A stretch of DNA of 51,093 nucleotides from Burkholderiaceae bacterium. Its GTDB lineage: Bacteria; Pseudomonadota; Gammaproteobacteria; Burkholderiales; Burkholderiaceae_B. Positions 15,640 through 33,213 of the stretch are shown here, in pieces. How positions within the stretch are numbered: the stretch's first letter is position 1; the number at the start of each line of letters is the position of its first letter. The notes beneath the pieces are model-generated. The model saw only the letters and a program-made list of their open reading frames with translations. It searched no databases and had not been told where the DNA came from. The stretch is from NCBI GenBank assembly GCA_017983955.1, contig JAGOAJ010000023.1, forward strand, positions 1-51,093, given 5' to 3'. A program made the position numbers and the translations under genes.

Positions 15640-15662
15640 TGCTGGTTTTTTAAGGATATCTT

Positions 15663-16331: not shown

Positions 16332-16341
16332 GGAGGGCGCC

Positions 16342-17355
16342 ATGCAGGATCAACGCGGGTTTGTGCTGCTGGAATTGGTGGTGGGCGCATTGATCGTAAC
16401 GCTGTTGGCGGTGTGGGGCGCCAATACGCTGGCGCGTCGCATGGACGAGGCCAGCGCACAGGCTGCTGCAGTCTGGATGCTATCGGTCAGGGGCGCTGCC
16501 CAGGCTTATGTAGGTCATTATGCCGCGACTTTGAGTCAGGCTGATCCGTCAGTCCTGATGAAGGACCAAGGTTATGCAGACTGGGCAGCGCCCACGCTGG
16601 ACGAGTTGAAGGCCAACGGCTTGTTGGCGACGGGCTTTCCTGACCATGTCCAGTTGGCGGGTAGCGCCGACATACGCGTCATGCGCGAAGGCGATTGCCC
16701 CGGATCACTCTGTCGTGTGACCGCATTCGTTACTAGCAGCCGTCCGTTGCTACGCTTAAACACCGACCAGGTAGATGAACACATGGTAGCGCTGTGGTTG
16801 ATGGCGGTTCAGGGCTTGGGCGGCAAGGTCAGTGATGCGCAACCGCAATGGCTGTCCGGAGCGTCATTTAAGTATGCCAATCCGCCGGTTGCGGGCATGG
16901 TCGTGTTGCCGCCCGGCACGGTGGTTTTAGTGGTCACCCCAGAGCAATCGGGTAGCAGTGATTTTTTGCGAGTGGGCGATAGTCGTGACCCTGATTTTCA
17001 GGGTGAATTGACGGTGCAAGGTGATGTGGTGGCTGCCGCCGATTTTCGAGTAGGCCGGAACTTGATTCTGGATAGTGAAGCTAGCTGGATGATGGGCTGC
17101 GATGATGAGGGCGCTATCACCAAGGATGATAACGGTGGATTGCTGATGTGTCGTAGCGGGCTGTGGCAGTCTACTGGGCGTGGCGGGGGAGGTTATTCGC
17201 TGGAAGCGACTACGGGATGTACGGGGGCGGGTATCAATCCGTTGACTAATAATTGCAGTTGTCCGCCGCATCATAGTCGGGTGCTGATTTCAGATAGCGG
17301 CCCTGGGGCGCCGGGTGGGTATAGATTGTTGGGGTATGTTTGCGTCAGTAGGTAG
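16342..17355 (+). CDS. pilV: PilV-like minor pilin / tip adhesin
   Basis: A 337-residue prepilin-like protein. The short leader MQDQRG precedes FVLLELVVGALIVTLLAVW, a class III signal with Glu5 of the mature part (VLLELV). The long remainder resembles the constant region of PilV, the minor tip adhesin of thin pili, and the C-terminal 60 residues are rich in Gly, Cys and Pro (GCTGAG, NNCSCPPHHSRV, GYVCVSR). The strong TAAGGAGGGCGCC just before ATG 16342 fixes the start, 10 bases after pilS; the upstream extension is a shadow. In plasmid systems the C terminus is swapped by a shufflon. I see no Rci-type recombinase and no repeated sfx-like sites here, so this PilV appears fixed. It is the last gene of the operon. 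Confidence 0.78.
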   Translation: MQDQRGFVLLELVVGALIVTLLAVWGANTLARRMDEASAQAAAVWMLSVRGAAQAYVGHYAATLSQADPSVLMKDQGYADWAAPTLDELKANGLLATGFPDHVQLAGSADIRVMREGDCPGSLCRVTAFVTSSRPLLRLNTDQVDEHMVALWLMAVQGLGGKVSDAQPQWLSGASFKYANPPVAGMVVLPPGTVVLVVTPEQSGSSDFLRVGDSRDPDFQGELTVQGDVVAAADFRVGRNLILDSEASWMMGCDDEGAITKDDNGGLLMCRSGLWQSTGRGGGGYSLEATTGCTGAGINPLTNNCSCPPHHSRVLISDSGPGAPGGYRLLGYVCVSR

Positions 17356-17429
17356 GTTGCAGGTTCTTTCGGTATGTTTATTTCTTAGGTGTGGCGTTGA
17401 TGGTCTTTTAGGCCCGTCCGCGTTTTTGT

Positions 17430-17760
17430 GTGGTGTTGTTGGTCCTGTAGGTACGTACGCCCTTTCGCGGTGGGCTCCTTACTCTGCGGCCCCGCTGCGC
17501 GAAAGCCGCTGCCGTAAGGACCCACCACTGCGGGCTAGTCGCGGGCTCAGAATAGGGTTTAGGGGAGGCTGTGCGCAAGTTGTGAGTTTTAATCGAGTTG
17601 TTAACGCCCGTTGCTTTAACGATGACGCATCGCCCGTGAAGTCTTGCGTCAGCCCACCAGGCAGGCAAGCGTCGGGTTCGCGGGAGCGCCTTTCGCGCAG
17701 CGGGGGCGCAGAGTGAACCCGGCGGTTGACGGCCGATGCCGCTGAAAGAACCACGAACAC
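17430..17760 (-). repeat. Structured intergenic element, copy A
   Basis: This 330-base block fills most of the 424-base gap between the convergent pilV and puuD ends. Its reverse complement matches copy B (30413-30752) at roughly three quarters identity by eye, with shared words such as TGCCGTAAGGACC and TTGACGGCCGATG. On the minus strand it forms a hairpin: a 15-pair stem with one bulged G (17467-17482 with 17514-17528), an internal loop, GCGGC/GCCGC (17505-17509, 17486-17490) and a 14-base loop. A second inverted repeat inside the element joins 17479-17510 with 17685-17716 (30 of 32 complementary). It begins 20 bases after the puuD stop on the puuD strand. No transposase and no target duplication were seen. 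I find no gene in the rest of 17356-17779. Confidence 0.8.
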
Positions 17761-17779
17761 ACCCCCGGCTACCTCCGTG

Positions 17780-19024
17780 TCAGGAACCATCCCATGCTGC
17801 AATTGCTGCGCGTTCAGCGTCTGTCATGCCCGTCATATTGCCTAGTGGCATATATCGACTGGCAACTGTTTGCTTGATCTGCTCCACATGCCGCAGGATG
17901 TCTTGTGGGCTTTCCAGATGTACGCCCGCGGGTGCAGCTGCGAATCCGCCCAGGGTGGGTTTGGCGCTATGGCATTGCACACAACGGGCGGCAATGATGG
18001 TTTGTACTGGGGTCAAGGCAGTGGTAGCGGTTGTGTCAGTCGCTGCTGTTGTGGTCACGGCTGACGTTGCTGCTACAGGTGTGGCCGCTGGTGTTGCTGC
18101 CGGCGCCATCAGCCAGGCGGCGACCGCCAGTAGCACTATGCCTGCCACGGGATAGCCCAACTGGTTTTTGCCGCTATGCCGCAAGACAAAGTACTGACGT
18201 ATCAGCGCGCCGGAAAAAATGAACAGGCTCATGATTTGCCAGGCATAGGGGCTGGTGTAGGTAAATGAATAGTGATTGCTTAGCATCAGCAACACTACAG
18301 GCAGCGTAAAGTAGGTGTTGTGCACAGAACGCTGCTTGCCGCGTTTGCCATCCAGGGGGTTTGGTGCAACACCGGCTTTCAAGGCTTTTACCATGCGGCG
18401 CTGGCCAGGAATAATCCAGAAGAAAACGTTGGCAGACATGGCGGTGGCCATGACAGCGCCGGTCAGCAAGAAGGCGGCACGGCCCTGGAACATTTGCATG
18501 CTTAGCCAGGATACCAGCACCATCATGATGCCCACGGCAACGCTTAAACGGCCGTCGTGTTCCATGTTGGGGCTGATGCGTCGGCACAGTTGGTCGTAGA
18601 CTACCCAACCCGCCAGTAAAAACGCCACGGCCAATGCGCTGGCCTGAAAGCCTGTCATGGTGGCGGCCCATGCCCAGGGGCTGGACGGATTCACCAGATA
18701 GAACGAGGGCTTTAGCAAATACATGATGGCAAATAAAGCAAACCCTGACAGCCAGGTCGAATAGGCTTTCCAGAACGACCAGTGCAGGTCCTCGGGCAGG
18801 TCAGGAGGGCTAACCAGATATTTTTGATTGTGGTAGAAGCCGCCGCCGTGCACTGCCCACATCTCGCCGGACACGCCTGCTTTGCTCTGTGCCGGGTTAC
18901 GTGGTGGGCGCAGGCTGTTGTCCAGCATGACGAAGTAGATGGATTCGCCTATCCAGGCGATGGCAGCGATGACGTGCAGCCATCGCAATAACAGGTTGCC
19001 GAATTCTGACAGGAATGCTTCCAT
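17780..19024 (-). CDS. puuD: Membrane urate hydroxylase with cytochrome c domain
   Basis: A 414-residue PuuD, which oxidises urate to 5-hydroxyisourate. The N-terminal part (about residues 1-310) is the multi-span DUF989-type membrane domain. It opens with LLLRWLHVIAAIAWIGESIYF and contains MWAVHGGGFYHNQKYLVSP, the family hallmark, plus about eight hydrophobic segments. An Ala/Thr-rich linker (about 311-342) leads to a C-terminal cytochrome c domain with CVQCH (Cys348, Cys351, His352) and a likely Met ligand in YMPLGNMTGM. This arrangement passes electrons to the respiratory chain rather than making peroxide. The ribosome-binding site AGAGGA precedes the ATG. It is transcribed after uraH with a 42-base gap, from the palindrome-bearing promoter region. 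The family identity is strong. Confidence 0.93.
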   Translation of the reverse strand: MEAFLSEFGNLLLRWLHVIAAIAWIGESIYFVMLDNSLRPPRNPAQSKAGVSGEMWAVHGGGFYHNQKYLVSPPDLPEDLHWSFWKAYSTWLSGFALFAIMYLLKPSFYLVNPSSPWAWAATMTGFQASALAVAFLLAGWVVYDQLCRRISPNMEHDGRLSVAVGIMMVLVSWLSMQMFQGRAAFLLTGAVMATAMSANVFFWIIPGQRRMVKALKAGVAPNPLDGKRGKQRSVHNTYFTLPVVLLMLSNHYSFTYTSPYAWQIMSLFIFSGALIRQYFVLRHSGKNQLGYPVAGIVLLAVAAWLMAPAATPAATPVAATSAVTTTAATDTTATTALTPVQTIIAARCVQCHSAKPTLGGFAAAPAGVHLESPQDILRHVEQIKQTVASRYMPLGNMTGMTDAERAAIAAWDGS

Positions 19025-19066
19025 GGTTTTCCTCTTGGGTATCAGGGATGATGAAGTTGCAGGCTG

Positions 19067-19420
19067 TCAGCTGCCGCGGTAGGTGGACCAGGTCCATGGC
19101 GTAACCACCAAGGGCACATGATAGTTTTCTGTGGGCTGGGCTACGCCAAACCGCAGGGTGATCTGATCGACGAAGCGCGGTTCGGGCAGGGCTACGCCTC
19201 GGCCGGAAAAGTAATCGCCTGCATGGAAAACCAGTTCGTATACGCCAAGCTGAAAATCAGCGTCTTGCAACAGGGGCTGGTCACAGCGCCCATCGGCGTT
19301 GGTGCGCACCTGTTTTAGTAGGTGGCGCTGGTCGCCATCTATGCGATACAGATCAATAGCAATATTGTTTGCCGGAACGCCATGCATGGTGTCCAGGACG
19401 TGGGTAGAGAGTTTTCCCAT
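19067..19420 (-). CDS. uraH: 5-hydroxyisourate hydrolase
   Basis: A 117-residue transthyretin-like enzyme that opens the ring of 5-hydroxyisourate, the PuuD product, to give OHCU. Family marks are the N-terminal KLSTHVLDTMHGVPA with the catalytic His, the central HYHVPL-like segment NYHVPLVVTPW, and the invariant C-terminal YRGS tetrapeptide. GGAG lies just upstream of the ATG. It is first in a leftward uraH-puuD unit that starts in the 106-base divergent promoter region shared with the GntR gene. The next enzyme, OHCU decarboxylase (UraD), is absent from the window, although spontaneous decay can partly replace it. Confidence 0.95.
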   Translation of the reverse strand: MGKLSTHVLDTMHGVPANNIAIDLYRIDGDQRHLLKQVRTNADGRCDQPLLQDADFQLGVYELVFHAGDYFSGRGVALPEPRFVDQITLRFGVAQPTENYHVPLVVTPWTWSTYRGS

Positions 19421-19443
19421 CTTTGTCTCCGGGTATCTACGTA

Positions 19444-19462
19444 GTCAACAATAATTGTTGAC
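19444..19462. promoter_or_regulatory. Palindromic operator in the uraH / GntR divergent promoter
   Basis: GTCAACAATAATTGTTGAC is a perfect palindrome with 9-base arms around one A. It sits 24 bases from the uraH start and 65 bases from the regulator start. Further TTGAC half-sites occur at 19470-19475 and, inverted, at 19500-19506. AT-rich, roughly two-fold-symmetric sites of this size are typical for GntR/FCD regulators, and the regulator gene lies next door, so autoregulation and control of uraH-puuD are the natural inference. Confidence 0.7.
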
Positions 19463-19470
19463 AATTTATG

Positions 19471-19498
19471 TTGACGATTTTGTGCGAGTACCTAATAA
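19471..19498 (+). promoter_or_regulatory. Likely sigma-70 promoter for the GntR-puuE unit
   Basis: TTGACG (19471-19476) and TAATAA (19493-19498) are separated by 16 bases, about 30 bases before the GntR start. The promoter overlaps TTGAC half-sites of the proposed operator, so bound regulator would hide it. The start point has not been shown. Confidence 0.5.
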
Positions 19499-19526
19499 TT
19501 GTCAATATGTTTAATCTGGATGACCT

Positions 19527-20285
19527 ATGCTACACCTCACATCGCGTCGTGATGATCTTGGCAGAATTGCCGCGCCCAGCGCATCGTCGCTGCTTAGCGG
19601 GCCGCCTGTAGGTGGTGGTCCTGAAATCGCCAGGGTCTATAACGATGTCTTCGATGCCGTCATGGATAGGCGCTTGTTGCCTGGTGCCAAGCTGACCGAA
19701 GCCGCCTTGTGCGACATTTTCCAGTGCTCGCGCGCTACCGTTCGTGCGGCCTTGTCGCAGCTGGCGCATGACCGCATCGTGGTCATACAGCCGAATCGCG
19801 GTGCCTTTGTCTGGGAACCCAGCGCCAAAGAAACCAAAGACGTGTTTGGTATGCGTCGCGCCCTGGAATGCATGGTCATAGACATGTTGTTGGCCTTGCC
19901 CGATTTGGATGATCGTTTAGCGCCCTTGTATGACATGGTGGCGCTGGAACGCAAGGCGTTTGAATGTGGCGATCGCATCAGCTGGATACGTTTATCTAAT
20001 GCCTTTCACGTCGAACTGGCCCGTTTGCTGGATAACGATGTACTGACGGAAACCTTGCACAGCTTGTGCGCGCGCAGCACTTTAATCATTGCTTATTACG
20101 ACACGCCCGGCGACAAGGCCTGTTCCTATATTGAGCACGCCGCATTGCTGGATTTATTGCGACAGGGCGATGGTGCAGGGGCACGTGCTGCCATGGCTCA
20201 TCACCTTGAGGACTGCGAGGACCGCATGCAAGATCACGATGCCGGCCCAGTCGACCCTTGGCTGTCTTTTGGAGTAAAGCGTTGA
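19527..20285 (+). CDS. GntR-family (FCD) transcriptional regulator of purine catabolism
   Basis: A 252-residue DNA-binding regulator. Residues about 33-95 form the GntR winged helix (VYNDVFDAVMDRRLLPGAKL, then CSRATVRAALSQLAHDRIV and NRGAFV). The C-terminal FCD ligand-binding domain (about 100-235) holds the acidic and His positions expected to bind metal and a carboxylated ligand, including DRISWIRLSNAFHVELARL and YIEHAALLDLLRQGD. It lies divergently from uraH-puuD and overlaps puuE by four bases. Local repression relieved by a purine breakdown intermediate is the likely role. The actual ligand cannot be read from the sequence. Confidence 0.9.
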   Translation: MLHLTSRRDDLGRIAAPSASSLLSGPPVGGGPEIARVYNDVFDAVMDRRLLPGAKLTEAALCDIFQCSRATVRAALSQLAHDRIVVIQPNRGAFVWEPSAKETKDVFGMRRALECMVIDMLLALPDLDDRLAPLYDMVALERKAFECGDRISWIRLSNAFHVELARLLDNDVLTETLHSLCARSTLIIAYYDTPGDKACSYIEHAALLDLLRQGDGAGARAAMAHHLEDCEDRMQDHDAGPVDPWLSFGVKR

Positions 20286-21226
20286 ACCAGAATATATCGG
20301 CCTTAACGTCTGACTATCCACGTGACTTAGTGGGCTATGGGCGAAATCCACCGCAGGCGAATTGGCCAGGAAAAGCCCGCGTGGCCGTCCAGTTTGTATT
20401 GAACTACGAAGAGGGCGGCGAGAACTGCGTTTTGCATGGCGACGCTGGCTCTGAACAGTTTTTATCGGAAATTATCGGGGCTGCTGCCTATCCCGCACGC
20501 CATTTGTCGATGGAGTCGATCTACGAATATGGCTCAAGGGCTGGCGTGTGGCGTTTGTTGCGCGAATTCGAACGTCGTAGTCTGCCGCTAACCGTATTTG
20601 CTATAGGCATGGCACTAGAGCGTAATCCTGAGGTCGCCCAGGCCTTGGTCGAACTAGGGCATGAGATTGCTTGTCATGGCTATCGTTGGATACATTATCA
20701 AGATGTTCCTGAAGAAATGGAACGCGATCATTGCCGTCGCTGTATAGATATCGTCTCTTCCTTAACCGGGCAGCACCCGCAAGGCTGGTATACCGGACGC
20801 GATAGTCCCAATACCCGCCGTATCATCCTGGAAGAGGGTAATTTCCTGTACGACTCTGATTACTACGGCGATGACCTGCCCTTGTGGACCCAGGTGCAAC
20901 TGGGTAGTGGTGAACTCAAGCCGCACCTGATCATTCCCTACACCCTGGACACCAACGATATGCGTTTTGCGTCGCCGCAAGGGTTCAATAGCGGCGAGCA
21001 GTTTTTTACCTATCTTAAGGACGCCTTCGATGTCTTGTATGCCGAAGGCGATAGCTGTCCAAAAATGATGTCGGTGGGCCTGCATTGCCGCCTGGTTGGT
21101 CGACCCGGCCGTTTTGCCGCTTTGCAGCGTTTTCTTGACTATATACAGGGCCATGACAGGGTGTGGATACCGACACGCGCCGATATTGCCCGTCACTGGA
21201 TCAAAGAACACCCGTATACCTCGTAA
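20282..21226 (+). CDS. puuE: Allantoinase PuuE (polysaccharide deacetylase family)
   Basis: A 314-residue metal-independent allantoinase of the NodB/polysaccharide-deacetylase fold; it hydrolyses allantoin to allantoate. Typical segments are YPRDLVGYGRNPPQANWPG, AVQFVLNYEEGGEN, SIYEYGSRAGVWRLLREFE, HEIACHGYRWIHYQD and FLYDSDYYGDDLPLW. I choose TTG at 20282: a GGAG lies seven bases upstream, and the start overlaps the GntR stop as TTGA. The frame stays open to a TTG at 20258, which is an alternative. There is no fused UraD domain, unlike some PuuE proteins. It is cotranscribed with the regulator, and alc follows 53 bases later. Confidence 0.92.
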   Translation: MNQNISALTSDYPRDLVGYGRNPPQANWPGKARVAVQFVLNYEEGGENCVLHGDAGSEQFLSEIIGAAAYPARHLSMESIYEYGSRAGVWRLLREFERRSLPLTVFAIGMALERNPEVAQALVELGHEIACHGYRWIHYQDVPEEMERDHCRRCIDIVSSLTGQHPQGWYTGRDSPNTRRIILEEGNFLYDSDYYGDDLPLWTQVQLGSGELKPHLIIPYTLDTNDMRFASPQGFNSGEQFFTYLKDAFDVLYAEGDSCPKMMSVGLHCRLVGRPGRFAALQRFLDYIQGHDRVWIPTRADIARHWIKEHPYTS

Positions 21227-21279
21227 TACCTTAACCGGAGCCTCTCCGGATACCCTCATTCCTATAAGGAGCAATTGTT

Positions 21280-22323
21280 ATGGCTGGACTTAATTTGCCT
21301 GTGGGCACTGTAGTTAATGCGGATGCCGTCGATTTGCCTGGCTTTGCCACTAGGCATGCGAATCTGGCCTCGGAAGACTTCGGTGCAAAAGTGTTGTCGT
21401 GCACTGATGATTTCTTCGCTTCGGCCCAGCGCATGCTGCAGTCGTCCGAGCCCGTGTTCATTGTGGGTAAGTTCGATGATAACGGTAAGTGGATGGATGG
21501 CTGGGAAACTCAGCGTCGCCGCAATGGCGGTCATGACACTGCCATCATACGTTTGGGCATGGCCGGTTCCATCAAAGGGCTGGACATAGACACCAGCCAC
21601 TTCACTGGCAACTTCCCGCCCGCCGCATCAGTGCAGGCCTGCAATAGCGCGGCTGACCCTGATCAGGATACTGTTTGGACAGATCTGGTGCCTGCCACGT
21701 CGCTGGCCGGCAACTCGCATCACTTTATCGATATTGACGACGAACGTGTCTGGACTCATTTGCGCCTTAATATCTATCCTGACGGCGGTGTGGCGCGTTT
21801 CCGCGTGTATGGCCAGCCTGCGTGCGATTGGGACGCGAAAGACCCGGATGCCGTTTACGAGGTTTCGGCCTTGTCCAACGGCGGGCGTGTGGTGGGCTAT
21901 AACAACGCGCACTTCGGCACGCCGTTTCGCCTGATTATGCAGGGCAGGGGCGTCAACATGGGCGATGGCTGGGAGACCCGCCGTCGCCGCGAACCTGGCT
22001 ACGACTGGTGCGTTATCGAATTGGGTCACGCGGCTATCGTTGAAAAGGTAGAAGTGGATACCGCTCACTTCAAGGGTAACTATCCTGACCGCGTTTCCAT
22101 ACAAGCGGCCCGCGTAGATGCCTCCACTGACCAGTCGCTAATCACGCAGGCTATGTTCTGGCCAGAATTACTGGCGGAACAAAAAACGGAAATGCATAAA
22201 CAGCATTTTTACGAAGGCGAGTCCTTACAGGCTTTGGGACCCGTGACGCATGTACGCGTCAATATGTATCCCGATGGCGGTATCAGCCGTGTGCGCGTTT
22301 GGGGGCGGTTGGCTAAAAGCTAA
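21280..22323 (+). CDS. alc: Allantoicase
   Basis: A 347-residue allantoicase, which splits allantoate into urea and ureidoglycolate. The protein is built of two related jelly-roll repeats: each contains a GWETRRRR-type segment (WMDGWETQRRRNGGHD near residue 71 and MGDGWETRRRREPGYD near 228). Each repeat also has a D-HF-GN-P stretch (DTSHFTGNFPP and DTAHFKGNYPD) and a VR-N-YPDGG-R-RV tail. Duplication of this kind is normal for the family. A clear AAGGAG precedes ATG 21280. It follows puuE, the enzyme before it in the pathway. A ureidoglycolate lyase or urease is not in the window. Confidence 0.95.
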   Translation: MAGLNLPVGTVVNADAVDLPGFATRHANLASEDFGAKVLSCTDDFFASAQRMLQSSEPVFIVGKFDDNGKWMDGWETQRRRNGGHDTAIIRLGMAGSIKGLDIDTSHFTGNFPPAASVQACNSAADPDQDTVWTDLVPATSLAGNSHHFIDIDDERVWTHLRLNIYPDGGVARFRVYGQPACDWDAKDPDAVYEVSALSNGGRVVGYNNAHFGTPFRLIMQGRGVNMGDGWETRRRREPGYDWCVIELGHAAIVEKVEVDTAHFKGNYPDRVSIQAARVDASTDQSLITQAMFWPELLAEQKTEMHKQHFYEGESLQALGPVTHVRVNMYPDGGISRVRVWGRLAKS

Positions 22324-22385
22324 GTAGCTCCCTCTATATAAAAAATGAAGTGGCTGCCGATAGAGCGGCCACCAAGGAGACAAGC

Positions 22386-22448
22386 ATGAGGCCATCCCTT
22401 TATCGCCAAGGGTCTGTTGCTTGTCGTAGTGCTGCAGGCGTAGCATAG
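22386..22448 (+). CDS. Possible 20-residue leader peptide upstream of xdhA
   Basis: In the 172-base gap before xdhA a perfect AAGGAGA stands seven bases before an ATG that opens a 20-codon frame ending in TAG (MRPSLYRQGSVACRSAAGVA). The ribosome-binding site is better than that of xdhA itself. A small hairpin (GTGGC 22350-22354 with GCCAC 22368-22372) lies just upstream. The peptide resembles nothing I recognise. It could be a translated leader that controls xdhABC, the remnant of a gene, or chance. No conservation data were available. Confidence 0.35.
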   Translation: MRPSLYRQGSVACRSAAGVA

Positions 22449-22495
22449 GTAGTAGCTACATCGCAGGCAGCTTTAGTCAACAGGCAGAGGGCCTT

Positions 22496-23941
22496 ATGCA
22501 GCAAAGAAATACAGTACGTTTTTATCTCAATGGACGTAAGCACGAAGTGCAGCCGGTATCGCCCACCCAGACGGTGTTGCAATACCTGCGCGAGCAACTG
22601 CGCCTGATGGGCACTAAGGAAGGCTGCGCCGAGGGCGATTGCGGAGCCTGTACGGTGACGGAAGCCAGTCTGGATAGCGCTGGGGCAGTGCATTATCGAT
22701 CCATTAACGCGTGCATACGTTTTCTGCCTACTGTCGATGGGAAATCCTTGTGGACGGTAGAAGGGCTAGCGGCTCCGGGTGCTGGCCTGCACCCCGTCCA
22801 ACAGGCATTGGTCGATCACCATGGTTCGCAGTGCGGGTTTTGCACGCCGGGTTTTGTCATGTCCATGTACACCATGTATCAGAACGGCATACGCCAGCCG
22901 GAACGCGACGAAGTCCTGGACAACCTATCGGGCAATCTGTGCCGTTGCACAGGCTACCGTCCTATTATTGATGCGGCCCAGGCCATGGACGACTACCCGA
23001 CGGCGGCTTTGGATCATGATCTGGTCAAGCAGCAATTGCAGCAACTGGCCGAGCAGTCGGAAGGTATGCTGGCGGTCACTACCCAAAAACAGCGTTATGC
23101 CGCGCCCACCAGCGTGTCCGCGCTGGCCCAGTTGGTGCAGGAATATCCCGAAGCCACCTTGTTGGCTGGCGGTACAGATGCCGGTTTGTGGGTGACCAAG
23201 CAGTTGAAAACTTTGGATAACGTTATTTATCTGGGCGATGTGCAAGGCTTGGCGGAAATTCAGCGTCGCGATGGCTATCTGGATATAGGCGCAGCCGTGT
23301 TATTGAATGACGCCTACGCCGCCATCGCGCTCGAATACCCCGAGGCCACGGAACTTTGGAAGCGCTTTGCCTCCATGCCTATACGCAATTCCGGTACCTT
23401 GGTGGGGAATGTCGCCAATGGTTCGCCGATAGGGGATTCCGCGCCGTTTTTAATTGCCATAGGCGCACAGGTGGTGCTGCGCAAAGGTGAACGTCAACGG
23501 ACTATGGCGCTGGACCAGCTGTATCTGGATTATCGCAAGCAAAATCGCGAACCCGGCGAATTCCTACAAGCCGTGCTGGTGCCGTTGCGGCGTCCCGGCG
23601 TGCAGGTGGCCACCTATAAACTGTCCAAGCGCTTTGATCAGGACATTTCCGCCGTGTGCAGTGCTTACGCAATAGAACTGGATCAGGGCAATGTTGCCTC
23701 AGTATGCATAGCTCATGGTGGCATGGCCGCCACATCAAAACGCGCCAGCCAGACCGAAGCCGTCTTGTTGGGCCAGCCCTGGAATGAAGCCACAGTGCAA
23801 TTGGCCATGCAGGCAATGGCGGCTGACTACCAGCCGATGACGGATATGCGGGCCAGTAGCGATTACCGTCTTAAAGCAGCACAAAATTTGCTGTATCGCT
23901 TCTATCTGGAAAGCACTGGCACGGACGCAACGCGCGTATAA
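22496..23941 (+). CDS. xdhA: Xanthine dehydrogenase small subunit (2Fe-2S and FAD)
   Basis: This 481-residue XdhA carries the iron-sulfur and flavin parts of xanthine dehydrogenase. The plant-type [2Fe-2S] cluster is bound by Cys44, Cys49 and Cys52 (GCAEGDCGAC) and a later Cys. The second cluster domain shows QCGFCTPG and NLCRCTGYRPI. The FAD domain starts near residue 205 (LLAGGTDAGLWVTK) and includes RNSGTLVGNVANGSPIGDSAP. The electrons leave here to NAD+. It partners with XdhB, whose gene starts 11 bases on. The purine context (puuD, uraH, puuE, alc) supports true xanthine activity rather than another molybdenum hydroxylase. Confidence 0.95.
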   Translation: MQQRNTVRFYLNGRKHEVQPVSPTQTVLQYLREQLRLMGTKEGCAEGDCGACTVTEASLDSAGAVHYRSINACIRFLPTVDGKSLWTVEGLAAPGAGLHPVQQALVDHHGSQCGFCTPGFVMSMYTMYQNGIRQPERDEVLDNLSGNLCRCTGYRPIIDAAQAMDDYPTAALDHDLVKQQLQQLAEQSEGMLAVTTQKQRYAAPTSVSALAQLVQEYPEATLLAGGTDAGLWVTKQLKTLDNVIYLGDVQGLAEIQRRDGYLDIGAAVLLNDAYAAIALEYPEATELWKRFASMPIRNSGTLVGNVANGSPIGDSAPFLIAIGAQVVLRKGERQRTMALDQLYLDYRKQNREPGEFLQAVLVPLRRPGVQVATYKLSKRFDQDISAVCSAYAIELDQGNVASVCIAHGGMAATSKRASQTEAVLLGQPWNEATVQLAMQAMAADYQPMTDMRASSDYRLKAAQNLLYRFYLESTGTDATRV

Positions 23942-23952
23942 AGGGATACATC

Positions 23953-26325
23953 ATGCAAAAGAATACGTGGCAAACTGTAGGCCAGCCGCTGGCGCACGAA
24001 AGCGCTGCACTGCACGTCAAGGGTACGGCGCTGTATACCGATGATTTACCCGAGCGCCATGGCATGTTGCATGCCGCGTTCGGACTGGCTGAACGTGCTC
24101 ATGCACGCGTGCTGTCCATGGATTTAAGCGCTGTTCGGCAGGCCGAGGGTGTGGTGGATGTGATTAGCCTGGACGATGTACCAGGGCATAAATACCTGGG
24201 ACCATTTCTGGCTGACGAGCCCGTGTTCGTGGATGAAATTACCCAATATCTGGGTCAGCCCTTGTTTGCGGTGGCCGCTACTAGCCACGACCTGGCGCGC
24301 CGCGCTGCTAGGTTGGCCGTGGTCGAGTACGAAGACCTGCAGCCCATACTGACGGTAGAAGAGGGGGCCAAGCAGCAGGCCTATGTTTTGCCGCCTGTGC
24401 GTATCCAAAAGGGTGATGTCCCGGCTGCACTAGCACTAGGCCCCAGGCGTTTACAGGGTGAGTTTTATTGCGGCGGCCAGGAACAGTTTTATCTGGAAGG
24501 CCAAATCGCTTATGCGGTTCCCGGCGAACAGCAGGAAATGCAGGTGTATTGTTCTACCCAACACCCCACCGAAATGCAGTTTATGGTCGCCCATGTGCTA
24601 AATCAGCCCGCGCATACCGTGAAGGTCGAGTGCCGTCGCATGGGCGGTGGCTTCGGTGGCAAGGAAAGCCAGTCCTGGCCTTTTGCCACAGTGGCAGCCC
24701 TGATTGCGCAGCGTACCGGTTTACCCGTGAAACTGCGTCCAGATCGCGACGACGATTTCATGATTACCGGCAAGCGTCACGATTTTCGCGTTTTATATGA
24801 CGTGGCCTACGGTGATGACGGTCAAATCAAAGCGGTGGCTTTCGAGCATCAGGTGCGCTGCGGTTATTCGGCAGACTTGTCGGGCGCGGTGGCTGATCGT
24901 CAGGTGTTTCATACCGACAACACCTATTTTCTGGACACTTTCGATATTTTATCGCTGCGTATCAAGACTCATACGCAGTCGAATACGGCATTTCGTGGCT
25001 TTGGCGGCCCGCAAGGCATACTGGCGATCGAATACGTCATTGACGATATTGCCATCAGTTTGGGTAAAGACGCGCTGGACGTGCGCAAGCTGAACTTTTA
25101 TGGCCACACTGAGCGTAACGTCACGCCGTATCAAATGAAGATTACGGATAACGTCATACACGAACTGGTGGACCAGCTGGAAGTGTCGTCTGATTACCGC
25201 GCGCGTCGTCAGCAGGTTATTCAATTCAATCAGGAAAACCGCATACTGAAAAAGGGTCTGGCCTTGGTGCCGGTCAAGTTTGGCATTTCGTTTACTGCTA
25301 CCCACTTGAATCAAGCGGGTGCCCTGGTGCATATTTATACCGATGGTTCCGTGCTGGTCAACCACGGCGGCACAGAAATGGGACAGGGCTTGAATACCAA
25401 GGTGGCCCAGGTGGTGGCCGAAGAACTAGGTTTGGGTATTGCCAGTATTAGGGTGTCTGCGGCTGATACTTCAAAAGTTGCCAATACTTCGGCAACGGCA
25501 GCATCAACGGGCACGGACTTGAACGGTAAGGCGGCGCAGGACGCTGCCCGCAAAATCAAGACCGCCCTGATCGCCTATGCCGCTGATCACTATGGCTGCG
25601 ATGCGGCAGATATCATGTTCCGATCGGGGCAAGTAATCTGCGGCGATCGTGTCACGCTGGCGTTTGCGGACTTTGTGCAGCAGGCCTGGATGGCGCGCAT
25701 ACCCTTGTGGTCGTCAGGCTTTTATCGCACCCCTAAAATCCATTACGACGTTAAAACCCTGACGGGGCGTCCGTTTTACTATTTTGTATATTGTGCCGCC
25801 GTTGCTGAGGTGGTGATAGACACTCTGACCGGCGAAAACCGCTTGTTGCGGGCCGACATCCTGTATGACGCAGGCCGGGCGCTGAATCCGGCGCTGGACC
25901 TGGGGCAGGTGGAAGGCGGATTTATACAAGGTATGGGCTGGTTGACCACTGAAGAACTATGGTGGGATGACAAGGGCAGGCTGATGACGCATGCTCCATC
26001 CACCTACAAAATTCCGTCCATATCGGATTGCCCGCCCATCATGAATGTTGCCTTTTTTGAAAACGGCAATACGGAAAACAATATTTACCAATCCAAAGCT
26101 GTGGGTGAACCGCCGCTACCGGCCGCCACTGCGGTGCTGTTGGCTATACGTGATGCGATTGCGGCCTGCGCTCAGCCTGGCGTGGCGCCACGCCTTGACG
26201 CCCCAGCTACCCCAGAGCGAATTCTGCAGACGCTGGATCAGGTGCAGCAGCCGCTGATGCCGTCTTCAGACGACCAAGCGCTTTATGGCGAGTCATTGCC
26301 GTCTACGCAGGAGTCTGTTGTTTGA
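23953..26325 (+). CDS. xdhB: Xanthine dehydrogenase molybdenum-binding subunit
   Basis: A 790-residue catalytic subunit holding the molybdopterin cofactor, where hypoxanthine and xanthine are hydroxylated. Motifs include GQEQFYLEGQIAYA, GGGFGGKESQ, the substrate-guiding Arg in AFRGFGGPQG, GGTEMGQGLNTKVAQ, TSATAASTGTDLNG and the catalytic glutamate in KAVGEPPLPAA near the C terminus. Length and order match bacterial XdhB. The 5' end has MQKNTWQTVGQPLAHESA, the usual family opening. The last base of its stop is shared with the xdhC start, so the maturation factor is made in step with the enzyme. Confidence 0.96.
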   Translation: MQKNTWQTVGQPLAHESAALHVKGTALYTDDLPERHGMLHAAFGLAERAHARVLSMDLSAVRQAEGVVDVISLDDVPGHKYLGPFLADEPVFVDEITQYLGQPLFAVAATSHDLARRAARLAVVEYEDLQPILTVEEGAKQQAYVLPPVRIQKGDVPAALALGPRRLQGEFYCGGQEQFYLEGQIAYAVPGEQQEMQVYCSTQHPTEMQFMVAHVLNQPAHTVKVECRRMGGGFGGKESQSWPFATVAALIAQRTGLPVKLRPDRDDDFMITGKRHDFRVLYDVAYGDDGQIKAVAFEHQVRCGYSADLSGAVADRQVFHTDNTYFLDTFDILSLRIKTHTQSNTAFRGFGGPQGILAIEYVIDDIAISLGKDALDVRKLNFYGHTERNVTPYQMKITDNVIHELVDQLEVSSDYRARRQQVIQFNQENRILKKGLALVPVKFGISFTATHLNQAGALVHIYTDGSVLVNHGGTEMGQGLNTKVAQVVAEELGLGIASIRVSAADTSKVANTSATAASTGTDLNGKAAQDAARKIKTALIAYAADHYGCDAADIMFRSGQVICGDRVTLAFADFVQQAWMARIPLWSSGFYRTPKIHYDVKTLTGRPFYYFVYCAAVAEVVIDTLTGENRLLRADILYDAGRALNPALDLGQVEGGFIQGMGWLTTEELWWDDKGRLMTHAPSTYKIPSISDCPPIMNVAFFENGNTENNIYQSKAVGEPPLPAATAVLLAIRDAIAACAQPGVAPRLDAPATPERILQTLDQVQQPLMPSSDDQALYGESLPSTQESVV

Positions 26326-27314
26326 TGGATGCAGCTATGCTTTTGCCTGGCGCGCCAGGCGTCTCGCCGTCAGTCTGGTTTGCTCATTTGCTGGCCAAGC
26401 TGGAAGCAGGCCAGCCTCAAGTTTTGATTACTGTGGTCAGGGCCTTGGGCTCCGTGCCCCGCGACCCTGGCGCCCGTATGTGGGTAGGGCCGGATTTGAC
26501 CGTCGACACCATAGGTGGTGGCCATCTGGAGTGGCAGGCCATTGCCCGGGCGCGCAACATGTTGCAGCAGGCCAGCAGCCAGCGGGAAGTTGTGCGCTAT
26601 GCGCTAGGCCCCAGTCTGGGGCAGTGTTGTGGCGGTGTTGTCTGGCTGGCTTTCGAACGCCTGGACCAAACGGATTTGGACTGGGGTCGTTTGCTGCTGC
26701 AGGCCGTAGACGAAGGCCGTTCGGTGCAGCGACTGGTCCGCCTGGGCGATAGCGACGGACTGGCGGTGTCTGGGGCTGCGGTTGAAATCATTCCGGCAGC
26801 AACGGATGCGAGCTGCGCTTGGAATGAAGCCGACAATCAGGTGGTTGACGTCTGGGCCGCGCCAGCCACCCACATCGTGGTCTGTGGCGCTGGTCACGTA
26901 GGGCATGCAGTCATCAATATCCTGGGTAGCTTGCCAGTGCAGGTCAGTTGGCTGGACCCGCGTGAAGATTGCTGGCCGGTACAGCCGCCGCGCAATGTGC
27001 GCTGTATCCAAGGCGATGCCGACGATGTGGTCGACTTGCCGGATAACGCGTATTGGCTGGTGCTGACCCATAACCATGCTCTGGATATGCAGTTGGTCGA
27101 AGCGATTTTTCAGCATAGAACGTTTCGTTTCCTGGGCCTGATCGGCTCTAAAACCAAGAAGGCGCGCTTTGTGTCGCGCCTAAGCCGTCGCTTTCCCAGC
27201 GAACTGGTCGAGCGTATGCAATGCCCCATAGGGCTGATTGCAACATCCAGTAAAGACCCCGCAATTATCGCTGTCTCTGTGGTGGCGCAAATCCTTAGTG
27301 TCACGGGCGCTTAG
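26325..27314 (+). CDS. xdhC: XdhC, molybdenum cofactor chaperone for xanthine dehydrogenase
   Basis: A 329-residue XdhC/CoxI-family protein. These bind the molybdenum cofactor, promote its sulfuration and insert it into XdhB; they are not part of the mature enzyme. Visible marks are VRALGSVPRDPGARMWV, TIGGGHLEW, the LGQCCGGVVWL cysteine motif, and a C-terminal Rossmann segment THIVVCGAGHVGHAVINIL followed by LIGSKTKKARF. ATG 26325 overlaps the xdhB stop by one base, with GGAG eleven bases upstream; a TTG one codon earlier is less likely. It closes the purine operon; alaS follows after 61 bases with its own probable promoter. Confidence 0.93.
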   Translation: MDAAMLLPGAPGVSPSVWFAHLLAKLEAGQPQVLITVVRALGSVPRDPGARMWVGPDLTVDTIGGGHLEWQAIARARNMLQQASSQREVVRYALGPSLGQCCGGVVWLAFERLDQTDLDWGRLLLQAVDEGRSVQRLVRLGDSDGLAVSGAAVEIIPAATDASCAWNEADNQVVDVWAAPATHIVVCGAGHVGHAVINILGSLPVQVSWLDPREDCWPVQPPRNVRCIQGDADDVVDLPDNAYWLVLTHNHALDMQLVEAIFQHRTFRFLGLIGSKTKKARFVSRLSRRFPSELVERMQCPIGLIATSSKDPAIIAVSVVAQILSVTGA

Positions 27315-27335
27315 CCCGCAAGTCAAATCTACCTC

Positions 27336-27341
27336 TATAAT
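27336..27341 (+). promoter_or_regulatory. Candidate -10 box of the alaS promoter
   Basis: TATAAT lies 35 bases before the alaS start in the gap after xdhC. A matching -35 box at normal distance is poor, so an activator or read-through from xdhC may also contribute. Confidence 0.45.
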
Positions 27342-27375
27342 CAATGGTTACTTCTAATTTAGCGTTGTTTCCGCA

Positions 27376-29997
27376 ATGAAAACCTCTGAAATACGTCAAA
27401 AATTCCTATCGTTTTTTGAATCGAAAGGGCATCAGGTCGTGCCGTCATCATCGCTGGTGCCTGGCAATGACCCCACGCTGCTGTTCACCAACGCGGGTAT
27501 GGTGCAGTTCAAGGATGTATTCACAGGCAAGGAAACCCGCCCTTACCACCGGGCTACATCGTCCCAGCGCTGCGTGCGCGCAGGCGGCAAGCACAATGAC
27601 TTGGAAAACGTCGGCTATACCGCGCGTCACCATACATTTTTTGAAATGCTGGGCAACTTCAGCTTTGGGGATTACTTCAAACGCGAAGCCATACACCACG
27701 CCTGGGAACTGTTGACCCAGGTATATGGGCTGCCCGCCGAAAAACTGTGGGTTACCGTTTATCACGAAGATGATGAAGCCTACGACATCTGGGCCAAAGA
27801 AATTGGCGTGCCCACTGAACGCATCATACGTATAGGTGACGACGAAGGCGGTCGCTACTCGTCAGATAACTTCTGGCAAATGGGCGACACCGGCCCTTGC
27901 GGCCCATGTTCCGAAATTTTCTACGATCACGGCCCGGAAATCTGGGGCGGCCCTCCTGGTTCGCCTGAAGAAGACGGCGACCGCTATATCGAAATCTGGA
28001 ACCTGGTTTTCATGCAATTCGAGCGCGACGCACAAGGCAATATGCCCTTGCTGCCCAAGCCCTGCGTGGACACCGGCATGGGACTGGAGCGCATTGCCGC
28101 CGTATTGCAGCACGTGCATTCCAACTATGAAATTGATTTGTTCCAGGCCTTGATCAAGGCCGCTGCGCGTGAGACCGGCACTACCGACCTGGCCGATAAC
28201 TCGCTGAAAGTTATCGCCGATCACATCCGCGCCTGTAGCTTCCTGATCCTGGATGGCGTCATTCCCAGCAACGAAGGGCGTGGTTACGTCTTGCGTCGCA
28301 TAATACGTCGTGCCTTGCGCCACGGCCATAAGCTGGGTCAGTCCGGCGTGTTCTTCCATCGTTTGGTGGCTGATTTGGCTGCCCAGATGGGCGAGGCCTA
28401 CCCAGAATTAGTGGCTCAGCAAGACCGTATTGCCCAGGTGCTGAAGCAAGAAGAAGAACGCTTCAGTTTGACGCTGGAACACGGTATGAAAATTCTGGAC
28501 GCTGCCTTGGCAGAAGTGCCCGAAGGCGGGCGTCTGGATGGTCAGACCTTGTTCACTTTGTACGACACCTATGGCTTTCCGGTAGACCTGACTGCCGACA
28601 TTTGTCGTGAGCGTAAAGTCGATGTGGATCTGGATGGCTTCGAAACCGCCATGACGCGTCAGCGCGATCAAGCCCGTGCTGCAGGCAAGTTCAAGGCGGC
28701 CGAAGGCCTAAGCTATAACGGCGCAGAAACCCGCTTCGAAGGCTACGACCACCTGCAAAGCCAGGGCAAGGTTGTTGCCTTGTATGTAGCTGGCACGTCG
28801 GTGGATAGCGTTGAGGCAGGTCAGGAAGCTATCGTTGTGCTGGACGCTACCCCGTTCTACGCCGAGTCTGGTGGTCAGGTCGGTGATACCGGTTTTTTGC
28901 TGGGTCAGGCTGCCCGCTTCCAAGTGGCGGATACCCAAAAAATTCAAAGCAACGTTTCAGGCCATCATGGTCAGTTGCTGGAAGGGCGTCTTACCGTCGG
29001 CGATATCGTAGAGGCCCAGGTAGATGCACAGCAACGTGCTCGCACCGTGCGCAATCACTCGGCTACCCACTTGATGCACAAAGCCTTGCGCCAAGTGCTG
29101 GGCCAACACGTGCAACAGCGCGGCTCGCTGGTCGATGCCGACAAAACCCGCTTTGACTTTGCGCACGACGCACCCATGAACGCTCAGCAAATCGCCAGCG
29201 TAGAGCAGATAGTCAATGCTGAAATTTTGCTTAACCAAGCAGTAGCCGCACAGACCATGTCGTATGACGATGCAGTGCAGGGCGGGGCGGTAGCCCTGTT
29301 TGGCGAAAAATACGGCGACAGCGTACGCGTGCTGGACATAGGCTTTTCACGTGAACTGTGCGGTGGCACGCACGTAGCACGTACCGGCGACATAGGCTTG
29401 TTTAAGATTTTGTCCGAAGGCGGCGTCGCCGCCGGCGTACGCCGCATCGAAGCCGTTACTGGCGAAAATGCATTGAACTGGGTGCAGCAAACCAATGCAG
29501 CACTACAGCACGCTGCCAGCTTGCTGAAAACCCAGCCTGCTGACTTGGCCGACCGCATCGTATTAATGCAAAACCAGTTGCGTACCCTGGAACGCGAGCG
29601 CGACCAATTACAAAGCAAACTGGCCGCGTCAGCGGGCAACGATTTGGTCAGCCAGGCCTTGGTACTGAATGGCGACGCCAAACTGCTGGTGGCCAATATC
29701 GCCGGTGCGGACCCCAAGGCCTTGCGTGGCATGGTGGATCAGCTTAAAGATCGTTTAAAGTCAGCTGTCGTCTTGCTGGCGGCTGTCGCTGATGGGAAAA
29801 TCAGCCTGGTAGGCGGCGTTACAGCCGACTTGTCAGCCAAGCTCAAAGCGGGCGACCTGGTCAGCACCGTGGCCTCTCAGCTAGGCGGCAAGGGCGGTGG
29901 CCGCCCCGATATGGCCATGGGTGGCGGTACTGACATCGCCGCACTGGATGGCGCCTTGGCCGGTGTAGAAGCCTGGGCTCGCGAAAAGCTGGCCTAA
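27376..29997 (+). CDS. alaS: Alanyl-tRNA synthetase
   Basis: An 873-residue class II synthetase, full length for the family. The aminoacylation domain opens with [24 protein letters not shown] and has [12 protein letters not shown] and TGMGLERI. The editing domain holds [12 protein letters not shown] (HxxxH zinc motif) and [13 protein letters not shown]. The C-terminal oligomerisation/C-Ala domain ends [24 protein letters not shown] 27376 is the natural start. By eye about 9 of 36 isoleucine codons are ATA. It stands between the purine operon and a TusA-family gene and ends at a GC-rich hairpin. Confidence 0.97.
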
Positions 29998-30004
29998 TAG
30001 GATT

Positions 30005-30044
30005 GCGCGGCGGCTGAATCCCAACCGCCGCGCTTAAGTTTTAA
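30005..30044 (+). terminator. Hairpin terminator between alaS and the TusA-family gene
   Basis: GCGCGGCGG (30005-30013) and CCGCCGCGC (30025-30033) form a perfect 9-pair GC stem with an 11-base loop. TTAAGTTTTAA follows, a moderate T tract. It overlaps the leader of the next gene, so partial read-through is possible. Confidence 0.7.
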
Positions 30045-30052
30045 GCATAATC

Positions 30053-30301
30053 ATGACTGATACTCTGACCCCACCCTCAGCAGACCTGGAAACCGACGCC
30101 TCGGGGCTGAAATGCCCCATGCCCATACTGCGCGCCAAAAAAGCCTTGGCGCAGCTGGAAAGCGGTCAAGTCCTGAAGGTGATCACCACCGACATCCACG
30201 CTTTGCGTGACTTCCAGGCCTTTGCCAAGCAAACCGGCAATACCTTGCTTGCTCAGATCGAGTCTGAAAGCAATATCGTTCATTACCTGCAGCGTCGCTG
30301 A
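30053..30301 (+). CDS. TusA/SirA-family sulfur carrier protein
   Basis: An 82-residue small cytoplasmic protein with the TusA-family motif GLKCPMPILRAKKAL; Cys20 of CPxP would carry the persulfide. It fits the two-layer TusA fold in length and has the VITTDIHALRDFQAFAKQTG stretch common in the family. TusA itself relays sulfur for 2-thiouridine in tRNA. Stand-alone paralogues serve other sulfur transfers, for example to molybdenum cofactor enzymes. It lies just after alaS, past a hairpin, with its own ATG at 30053. No tusBCD partners are seen, so the exact relay is unknown. Confidence 0.85.
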   Translation: MTDTLTPPSADLETDASGLKCPMPILRAKKALAQLESGQVLKVITTDIHALRDFQAFAKQTGNTLLAQIESESNIVHYLQRR

Positions 30302-30314
30302 TCGAAAGTCCCAT

Positions 30315-30378
30315 TCTGAGCTTGCAACAAGCCCGCAAGGGCGGTGCGACTAATGTACCCGCAGCGCTAAGGCTCAGA
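30315..30378 (+). other. Possible stem-loop in the TusA-family 3' region
   Basis: TCTGAGC (30315-30321) can pair with GCTCAGA (30372-30378). The span between includes the small hairpin GCCC-GCAA-GGGC (30331-30342), with a GNRA loop. No T tract follows. It may be a 3' end structure or chance. Confidence 0.3.
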
Positions 30379-30412
30379 TTACGCTCGTGAAGCGTCAGTA
30401 CTCACACACCAA

Positions 30413-30752
30413 ACACTGTCTAGTTCCTTCTGTGCCATCGGCCGTCAATCGCCGTACTCACTCTGTGCCCCCGCTTGCGCGAAAGGCACTCCCGTGACCA
30501 CGACGCTTGCCCGCCTTATGGGCTGACACAAGACTTCACTGGCGATGCTTCATCGTTAATTTACTGGGTGTTAGCAACTTGCTATAGACATACGTCTACC
30601 CAACCCACACAACCACCCCCAAAAGACCTGTTCTGAACCCACGCCTAGCCCGTAGTGGTAGGTCCTTACGGCAGTGGCTTTGACGCAGCGGGGCCACCGA
30701 GTAAGGAGCCTGCCACTTAAGGGCGGACGTCCCTATAGGACCAGCAAGCTAA
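30413..30752 (+). repeat. Structured intergenic element, copy B
   Basis: Inverted and diverged copy of the element at 17430-17760, lying about 110 bases after the TusA-family stop and about 190 bases before ectA. Its plus strand corresponds to the minus strand of copy A. The main hairpin is kept: 30655-30669 pairs with 30701-30716 around one bulged G; inside it GTGGC (30674-30678) pairs with GCCAC (30693-30697), with a 14-base loop. Two pairs differ from copy A by full compensatory change (30675/30696 and 30660/30711) and two by a switch between U-A and U-G. The second inverted repeat of copy A is partly decayed here. It ends in two similar units of about 30 bases containing GGACGTCC- or CGGACGTAC-like words. 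Confidence 0.8.
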
Positions 30753-30835
30753 TACGAGAAGAGCGGACGTACCCACAAGACTAACAAGCAGACACCAGAC
30801 CTTGTCATCTCACAGTAACAAAGTAATACACTGGG

Positions 30836-30864: not shown

Positions 30865-30943
30865 TTGAGTTGAAATGATTTTCAGTGAATTGATTTCTAT
30901 AGTCATAGATCAACTGAGGATTGCCCACTTAAACGTAACTATC

Positions 30944-31486: not shown

Positions 31487-31503
31487 ACGAGACAGGACAT
31501 ATT

Positions 31504-33203: not shown

Positions 33204-33213
33204 AGGAGGTTTT

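Follow-up and report, generated by a model that had tools for sequence, protein, structure and literature searches.

Two diverged, inverted blocks in the window (the whole stretch of 51,093 nucleotides analysed), here called A and B, are members of a genus-restricted repeat family. The explanation that accounts best for them, held to be reasonably probable, is that they are non-autonomous, MITE/REPIN-like elements of this genus, derived from a longer form that carries an Rpn-like gene, spread by insertion and decaying in place. No gene of the Rpn kind is known to be carried within a defined mobile element, which is why the gene-bearing version of this family matters.

The relationship between A and B is clear from their alignment by blastn (window positions 17397-17751 on the plus strand against 30787-30423 on the minus strand), in which 279 of 365 columns are identical (76%) with 10 gap columns at E 3e-74. 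This bears out the earlier note, which had seen diverged inverted copies at roughly three quarters identity, and slightly extends its coordinates (17430-17760 and 30413-30752). In a self-comparison at E 1e-5 the pair is by far the largest repeat in the window. The genes between the copies are also those named at the time: hydroxyisourate hydrolase, a GntR/FCD regulator, PuuE, allantoicase, XdhA/B/C, AlaS and TusA. The idea that A and B specially bracket this purine block did not survive, since they are two of about 35 loci in the genome and the word "bracket" is therefore misleading. A lies between an ORF at 16288-17355 (plus strand; Pfam-negative at E 1e-4) and the urate oxidase gene at 17780-19024 (minus strand; Urate_ox_N), so that two genes converge on it, and B lies between tusA (30053-30301, plus strand) and ectA (30875-31486, plus strand). 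Three mechanically called ORFs (133, 107 and 139 aa) extend into A; two are Pfam-negative and one has a weak sub-threshold match (E 0.0075). B holds no ORF of at least 60 aa. The parts of the two copies are as follows.

17385-17421 and 17426-17462, plus strand: copy A, two outer units of ~40 bp on the H1 side (nhmmer H1-side unit model, E 5e-6 and 4e-8; inner unit in the training set)
17457-17538, plus strand: copy A, hairpin H1 (CM R2, 104 bits, E 5e-21, in the training set; RNA fold z -3.8 on the plus strand, -6.4 on the minus strand)
17539-17656, no strand: copy A, 118-bp spacer of the long class, the stretch separating the H1 and H2 matches
17657-17738, minus strand: copy A, hairpin H2, in the opposite orientation to H1 (CM R3, 101 bits, E 5e-23, in the training set; RNA fold z -4.8 on the plus strand, -2.2 on the minus strand)
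17723-17754, minus strand: copy A, H2-side outer unit (nhmmer H2-side unit model, E 1.4e-8; in the training set)
30413-30451, plus strand: copy B, H2-side outer unit that overlaps the arm of H2 (nhmmer E 2.7e-8; a training-set member)
30436-30518, plus strand: copy B, hairpin H2 (CM R3, 92 bits, E 1e-20, in the training set; RNA fold z -2.9 on the plus strand, -4.9 on the minus strand)
30519-30644, no strand: copy B, spacer of 126 bp, of which 30607-30644 resembles the 3' UTR of the rpn-like gene in the gene-bearing copy (82%, 38 bp, E 1.9e-6)
30645-30726, minus strand: copy B, hairpin H1 (CM R2, 94 bits, E 1.3e-18, in the training set; RNA fold z -5.7 on the plus strand, -4.0 on the minus strand)
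30721-30758 and 30763-30795, minus strand: copy B, two outer units of ~40 bp on the H1 side (nhmmer E 2.9e-7, in the training set, and 0.0014)

This architecture is that of the family. Scans of the genome with CM R2 and R3 found 36 H1 and 33 H2 places at these loci, including 31 short facing H1/H2 pairs of uniform relative orientation and, in addition, a pair that encloses a gene. An element thus reads as ~40-bp units, H1, a spacer, H2 in inverted orientation and ~40-bp units again, where H1 and H2 are related hairpins of ~75-80 nt each. The unit arrays extend past the innermost unit (nhmmer), and the end units of the H1 and H2 sides resemble each other (2 of 2000 shuffles scored as high). Alternating clusters of hairpins occur on C50, C43 and C2. 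At 33 loci no called ORF longer than 120 aa overlaps the element by more than 60 bases, the greedy caller discarding conflicting ORFs. Across 268 family genomes, the H1 and H2 models match this genome and one congener (G001); the other 266, scanned under stricter filters with 17 candidates scored per genome where listed, gave no match. The earlier suggestion of a lineage-specific repeat is thereby supported. Copy A has no match among plasmid and phage records and the core pattern none among viral contigs, and an origin from a mobile vector was set aside.

The hairpins are conserved as structures. In the H1 alignment 94.4% of cells are paired, and 13 pairs and 62 cells have changed on both sides (0 of 500 shuffles as high); in H2 87.7% of cells are paired, with changes on both sides in 8 pairs (14 of 500 shuffles as high) and 42 cells (0 of 500). 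The modelled strand holds 18 (H1) and 71 (H2) C-A cells versus 2 and 4 G-T cells, an excess that leaves the complement 96.6% and 97.4% paired, respectively. A reading of the hairpins as DNA palindromes, drawn from near-absent G-U pairs, held on the modelled strand only, its C-A cells being G-U on the complement. Since wobble pairs are tolerated almost only on one strand, which in each hairpin reads from the inside of the element outward, the hairpins probably act as RNA or as single-stranded DNA of that favoured strand. RNA folding of the hairpins of A and B shows the same asymmetry (z -4.8 to -6.4 on the complement versus -2.2 to -4.0 on the modelled strand).

The only gene found inside the family encodes a DUF4351/Rpn-like protein and is present in two copies at 94% DNA identity. 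On C2, H2 at 34937 is followed by an ORF of 357 aa and by H1 at 36279. The C50 copy shares 1658 columns with it at that identity, in an alignment that starts 26 bp outside H2 and ends 7 bases beyond the stop codon, and has no H1 beyond the gene. As duplicates, the two amount to about one event linking gene and element, to which the orthologous site is added; in the sister species the gene is truncated and fused to a hybrid H2/H1 hairpin. The 357-aa protein matches DUF4351 (PF14261; E 1.5e-7, 31.8 bits versus a cut-off of 25) and, modestly, RpnA (hhalign E 2.7e-4, probability 41.7), with which its D...E-x-Q region aligns. Any nuclease domain lies below Pfam detection, Transposase_31 is weak in three of seven aligned proteins (best E 0.015) and absent from this one, and a search of solved structures gave no meaningful match. 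To judge from sequence likeness, it is probably a DNA-cutting protein.

The short elements carry traces of this gene's surroundings. Its 3' UTR matches the spacers of nine of them, B included (E <= 3e-4), and in three (#24, #25 and #30) the match runs almost to the stop codon; part of it is the H1-adjacent stretch common to most copies. The coding sequence has no match at E 1 among 33 short-element fragments, and the leader has one weak match of 16 bp (E 0.41). We infer that the gene-bearing form is ancestral to the short copies, and the parent of the family is probably an Rpn-bearing element. Its inverted terminal repeats would each comprise one or more degenerate ~40-bp units followed by an ~80-nt hairpin, H1 at one end and the related H2 at the other, and the short copies would most simply be gene-less derivatives of the longer form with the gene between H2 and H1. 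As a weaker step, the Rpn-like enzyme would cut at the hairpins or units and so spread the element by recombination, after which copies would decay where they sit, as B clearly did in the sister species.

Comparison with the sister species informs how the copies came to their sites. At six of 21 sites compared, the sister locus looks empty, with a gap of at most 26 bp versus 330-530 bp here; at #23, #3 and #18 the gaps are 4, 9 and 14 bp, approximate values since they are BLAST ends. Remnants detected by CM or BLAST occur at five sites (B, #4, #12, #29 and #30), weak remnants at two (A and #8), and the other eight were assigned to neither class. CM scans found five places in the sister species. 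At its site A the models found no hairpin at E 1, and its likeness to copy A is not significant (37 of 500 same-strand shuffles scored as high, and 74 of 500 when both strands were allowed), while against the sister's own H1, a comparison chosen afterwards, no shuffle of 500 scored as high. The gene-bearing site on C50 corresponds there to a gap of 154 bp without a CM match; it is not cleanly empty, this gap being H1-like against the sister's own H1 (0 of 500 shuffles as high; 110 of 500 against the C50 element). No clear target-site duplication was seen at eight sites inspected, where the flanks are too diverged to fix the element ends. In the sister species the 13-kb block between A and B is collinear and has the same orientation as here, which leaves the rearrangement that the earlier note had envisaged unsupported; an inversion was rejected. 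One difference stands at its edge: ectABCD lies between B and rpsP here but not in the sister species, and a supposed breakpoint at B amounts only to this.

The narrow sites are taken to reflect insertion and not loss. The opposite history, in which they are near-exact losses from an ancestral, static family that decays in the sister species and is kept here, is improbable; the full and weak remnants at shared sites, B and A among them, and the smaller sister genome (2.8 versus 3.3 Mb) agree with it, but #23, #3 and #18 would each need a near-scarless loss, of ~526, 412 and 404 bp. A different origin would make the family REP/BIME-type repeats with a chromosomal role, spread by a RAYT-type transposase since lost, in one copy of which the rpn-like gene merely landed. 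The facing pairs, the alternating clusters and the absence of coding remnants from the short-element fragments suit this account, and REPs are described in the available part of PMC3733652 as oppositely oriented dimers that lie mainly downstream of genes. It is nevertheless unlikely: Y1_Tnp (PF01797) has no match in the genome (94.46% complete), while the same search was positive in five of 14 control genomes, and a RAYT was set aside as mobiliser; the hairpins are ~80 nt and not 20-40; and the UTR homology approaches the stop codon in three short elements.

A role as RNA is compatible with mobility. The hairpins would then be functional parts of 3' UTRs or sRNAs, active in mRNA protection, termination or protein binding, which may explain their retention. 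The strong compensatory change, the one-sided wobble and the deeper folds of the complement all favour it. In the gene-bearing copy, moreover, H1 has its favoured strand in common with the gene, so that H1 would fall in the 3' UTR, and a Bordetella repeat of similar size overlaps small transcripts according to the accessible text of PMC3110155. Against these stand the opposite favoured strands of H1 and H2, by which a single transcript carries only one favoured hairpin, and the lack of a fixed orientation to flanking genes (11 convergent, 12 tandem and 7 divergent of 30 loci). Whole-element RNA folds stand out only moderately (z -1.8 and -2.5), and a hairpin of single-stranded DNA could yield the same strand bias. 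The Rfam scan of the window returned no match at or above any family's gathering threshold. Of the earlier proposal of an RNA family, the strand bias fits a structure in RNA or single-stranded DNA, while Rfam lends nothing; a functional RNA as the explanation is somewhat unlikely.

Beside the preferred reading, of gene-less elements spread by insertion from an Rpn-bearing parent, stands a bolder one: the Rpn/DUF4351 nuclease may itself be the mobilising enzyme, the hairpin-bearing inverted ends that bound its gene having spawned dozens of gene-free copies and the family having decayed where the gene is broken. This is unlikely. If true, a single PD-(D/E)XK nuclease would be driving a mobile element, and elements of that sort are, by published work, not known. 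Rpn genes are widespread and commonly labelled putative transposases. In the part of preprint PMC10327210 available, they have no identifiable terminal inverted repeats or target duplications, a transposase role is thought highly unlikely, and their products are seen as toxin-antitoxin and phage-defence nucleases. No literature linking a recombination-promoting nuclease with terminal inverted repeats was found.

Several known systems share features with the family; its end build, tandem ~40-bp units with a long hairpin favoured on one strand, does not appear in the portions of the related literature examined. The Bordetella BRE, described from Alcaligenaceae, is also dispersed, mostly intergenic and of similar unit size (PMC3110155, in part). 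In contrast to this family, confined to this genome and G001 among those scanned, BRE, compared by description only, is a unit of ~75-91 bp, often in tandem and present in several betaproteobacterial families. REPINs and BIMEs share the opposite-orientation hairpin pair, the short spacer, the intergenic dispersal and the clusters of alternating units, but not the ~80-nt hairpins with a shared inner core, the outer units, the missing RAYT or the DUF4351/Rpn-like gene. The palindrome of 20-40 bp typical of REPs of the GTAG/CGTC super-family is exceeded by hairpins of ~75-80 nt, and a reverse-strand GTAG, seen by eye in 18 of 27 H1 (not in A), lies inside the outer stem and not at a free end. With MITEs the family shares short, dispersed copies, inverted ends, a longer relative that carries a gene and has the same ends, and narrow sister-species sites, but it lacks a clear target duplication and the gene of its longer form belongs to no accepted transposase family, going by the part of PMC10327210 available. 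TIRtrons, as the accessible text of PMC3733652 describes them, are genes for tyrosine transposases that lie between long inverted repeats with partial self-complementarity, some of which are also dispersed as dimers. They too set a gene between palindromic inverted repeats which recur elsewhere as a dispersed family, although the gene here is DUF4351/Rpn-like and not a Y1 transposase.

The protein itself resembles the Rpn (YhgA-like) recombination-promoting nucleases, with which it shares the DUF4351 C-terminus and the alignable D...E-x-Q region. The two gene copies differ by a gap of four residues, as the available text of PMC10327210 reports for RpnS repeats. Unlike the published rpn genes, which by the same partial source lack identifiable terminal inverted repeats, this one sits between H2 and H1. 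An Rpn-like gene inside a dispersed, hairpin-ended element, together with narrow sister-species sites and a truncated gene in the decayed family, makes the question of how rpn genes move directly testable.

Copies A and B, the two inverted blocks in the window, are true members of a mobile-looking repeat family that is private to its genus so far. The earlier note had read them as diverged inverted copies, and blastn bears this out: 17397-17751 aligns with 30787-30423, with 279 of 365 columns identical (76%, E 3e-74). The gene identities it named between the two were confirmed. Its suggestion that the inverted copies could allow rearrangement of the 13-kb block is not supported, as window 13500-30302 is collinear with the sister species (G001) in the same orientation, at 76-82% identity. 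Rfam returned no family at gathering score over the window. Mechanical ORF calling extends ORFs of 133, 107 and 139 aa into copy A, none with an above-threshold Pfam match. Between copy B and rpsP, window 30875-34131 holds ectA, a class-III aminotransferase gene in the EctB position, ectC and a PhyH gene in the EctD position; the sister has an element remnant and then rpsP after tusA, with an ect-like stretch close to the end of a different contig. Self-comparison of the window also gave a 39-bp direct repeat of 90% identity (45673-45711 and 46291-46329).

Counting self and small inverted arms, 62 pieces of the genome match copy A. Covariance models (CMs) of the two hairpins at opposite element ends, H1 and H2, which share a common core, return 60 and 63 hits at E <= 0.001, and each model picks up the other hairpin as well. 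When every place is given to the model that fits it better, 36 H1 and 33 H2 remain, spread over about 35 loci; many of these places had been in the training sets. Short facing pairs number 31; a further pair, on contig C2, is spaced about 1.3 kb, and five hairpins stand alone (four H1, one H2). The proposal of a lineage-specific repeat stands: among 268 genomes of the family the CMs match only this genome and the sister species, a member of the same genus; that scan used stricter filters and, where candidates were listed, scored 17 per genome. The same two emerged from a DNA search of 61 genomes that included this one. An exact core-pattern scan of 84,980 named species genomes, which may omit records of the window's own genome, found only 'Alcaligenaceae bacterium strain CGII-43', with two stretches. 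Copy A has no match in plasmid and phage records, nor the core pattern in viral contigs. Two copies, L009 (C20, ~15.5 kb) and L010 (C6, ~18.3 kb), are almost identical, part of the flank included, as if element and adjoining piece had been duplicated as one.

Alignments of 27 sequences per hairpin show covariation in both. In H1, 94.4% of cells pair, and both-side changes occur in 13 of 27 pairs and 62 cells (0/500 shuffles as high); H2 has 87.7% paired and both-side changes in 8 of 26 pairs (14/500) and 42 cells (0/500), the shuffle counts not being probabilities because shuffles do not preserve relatedness. With partners slid, pairing is at most 43.5% and 37.6%. The modelled strand holds two G-T cells in H1 and four in H2, every one from a single sequence, and C-A cells numbering 18 (H1) and 71 (H2), in eight pairs each, although cells are not independent events. 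Since a C-A cell is G-U on the complement, the complement is paired in 96.6% (H1) and 97.4% (H2) of cells. RNA folds of the four window hairpins give z of -6.4, -4.8, -5.7 and -4.9 on the complement against -3.8, -2.2, -4.0 and -2.9 on the modelled strand; DNA folds favour the complement in three, the strands being about equal in the fourth. From this wobble bias and these folds we infer that it is the complement strand whose structure acts, either as RNA or as single-stranded DNA, and the hairpins may have an RNA role. This strand points from inside outward in all facing pairs, which puts the favoured forms of H1 and H2 on opposite strands. An RNA fold of the entire copy A gives z of -1.8 and -2.5, with pairing mainly between H1 and H2.

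Spacers are mostly ~77 or ~119 bp, and degenerate units of 39-41 bp flank the hairpins on the outer side. H1 units match 60 times in 30 of 33 loci (1-4 per locus) and H2 units 41 times in 31 of 33 (1-3, some weak); in the 27 training copies the innermost match is expected by construction, and only further matches support arrays, clearly at the H1 end and less strongly at the H2 end. The consensus sequences of the two unit types are alike (score 26, shuffled mean 13, 2/2000 shuffles as high). At the 33 of 35 loci analysed with a simple greedy ORF caller, which drops ORFs clashing with longer ones, no called ORF longer than 120 aa shares more than 60 bases with any element. Where both neighbours were called (30 loci), 11 pairs are convergent, 12 tandem and 7 divergent.

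Thirty flank pieces were searched in the sister species, giving 24 rows; #15 and #27 were left aside, and 21 sites were aligned locus to locus. From these, #19, #22 and #32 (single flank only) were removed and sites A, B and #8 brought in, so that the final set again has 21 sites, with #12 completed from other alignments. At six sites (#3, #9, #11, #18, #23, #26) the sister gap is at most 26 bp against 330-530 bp here, element #9 being a single H1. Remnants were detected by CM or BLAST at five (B, #4, #12, #29, #30). Sites A and #8 have no CM match and are H1-like solely against the sister's own H1 (0/500 shuffles as high); against the copy in this genome, 37/500 (A, same strand) and 110/500 (#8) score as high. 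Six sites (#6, #14, #21, #24, #25, #28) have gaps of 51-125 bp with no remnant detected, and #1 and #7 (0/200 each) are ambiguous, flanks having been part of the compared sequence. No clear target duplication was seen at the eight printed sites. The narrow gaps and remnants together indicate that the family is older than the split of the two species and has since decayed in the sister, and that insertion probably continued in the present lineage. At #30 (L148, sister C1, ~338 kb) a 46-bp H2 core is 98% identical across species, against ~77% in the flanks. Sister loci L112 (C3, ~48.3 kb) and L113 (C4, ~48.9 kb) are apparent H1-arm/H2-arm hybrids joined near the hairpin loop, possibly a recurrent deletion product.

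The distant pair on C2 encloses a gene:

C2 34937-35019, H2 (CM)
C2 35151-36221, 357-aa ORF, between H2 and H1
C2 36279-36361, reverse strand, H1 (CM)

The C-terminus of the protein is DUF4351 (E 1.5e-7, over cut-off). A tblastn search of plasmids matches 57 records, none reaching 60% identity and at least 43 of them from cyanobacterial genera; those with an annotation among the 25 matches listed are DUF4351, 'cytosolic' or hypothetical proteins. On Synechococcus elongatus plasmid pIITB7_1 (L167) a DUF4351 homologue adjoins DISARM drmA and a further DUF4351 ORF of small size, an arrangement suggestive of a defence locus. Residues D63, E83 and Q85 are invariant in seven aligned proteins (two from this genome), among which DUF4351 is matched in five, Transposase_31 weakly in three and HTH_7 in two. 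In a profile comparison, 89 columns spanning the D63-E83-Q85 region align with E. coli RpnA (E 2.7e-4, probability 41.7). The sole other match in the genome, on C50, has 97% protein identity; the 4-residue gap between the two proteins resembles variation reported for RpnS in PMC10327210. The loci share 1658 columns at 94% identity, a stretch that starts 26 bp outside H2, ends 7 bases beyond the stop codon and has the order H2-H1'-H2-gene. At the orthologous site in the sister, whose genome has five hairpin places by CM scans, the gene ends inside the E-x-Q motif, fused to an H2-arm/H1-arm hybrid.

The 54-base 3' UTR matches 9 of 33 short-element fragments at E <= 3e-4 (copy B, 82% over 38 bp), a match that is partly the H1-adjacent stretch found in most copies; in #24, #25 and #30 the homology nearly reaches the stop codon. 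The leader gives a single 16-bp match (E 0.41) and the coding sequence none in the same fragments. The simplest story is that the short elements derive from the gene-bearing form by losing the gene; alternatively, the gene entered an already old element. As described in PMC5350276, RpnA is a DNA endonuclease of little sequence specificity whose overexpression raises RecA-independent recombination. An Rpn-like enzyme could cut at hairpins or units and start recombination, which might copy the element to new places or onto copies already present. PMC10327210 counts against such Rpn-driven spread: the rpn genes it describes lack both terminal inverted repeats and target duplications, and it judges a transposase role highly unlikely.

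The novelty is the tie between repeat family and Rpn-like gene, with few events behind it. The family departs from REP in both size and RAYT, and is close in kind to MITEs, REPINs and TIRtrons alike.
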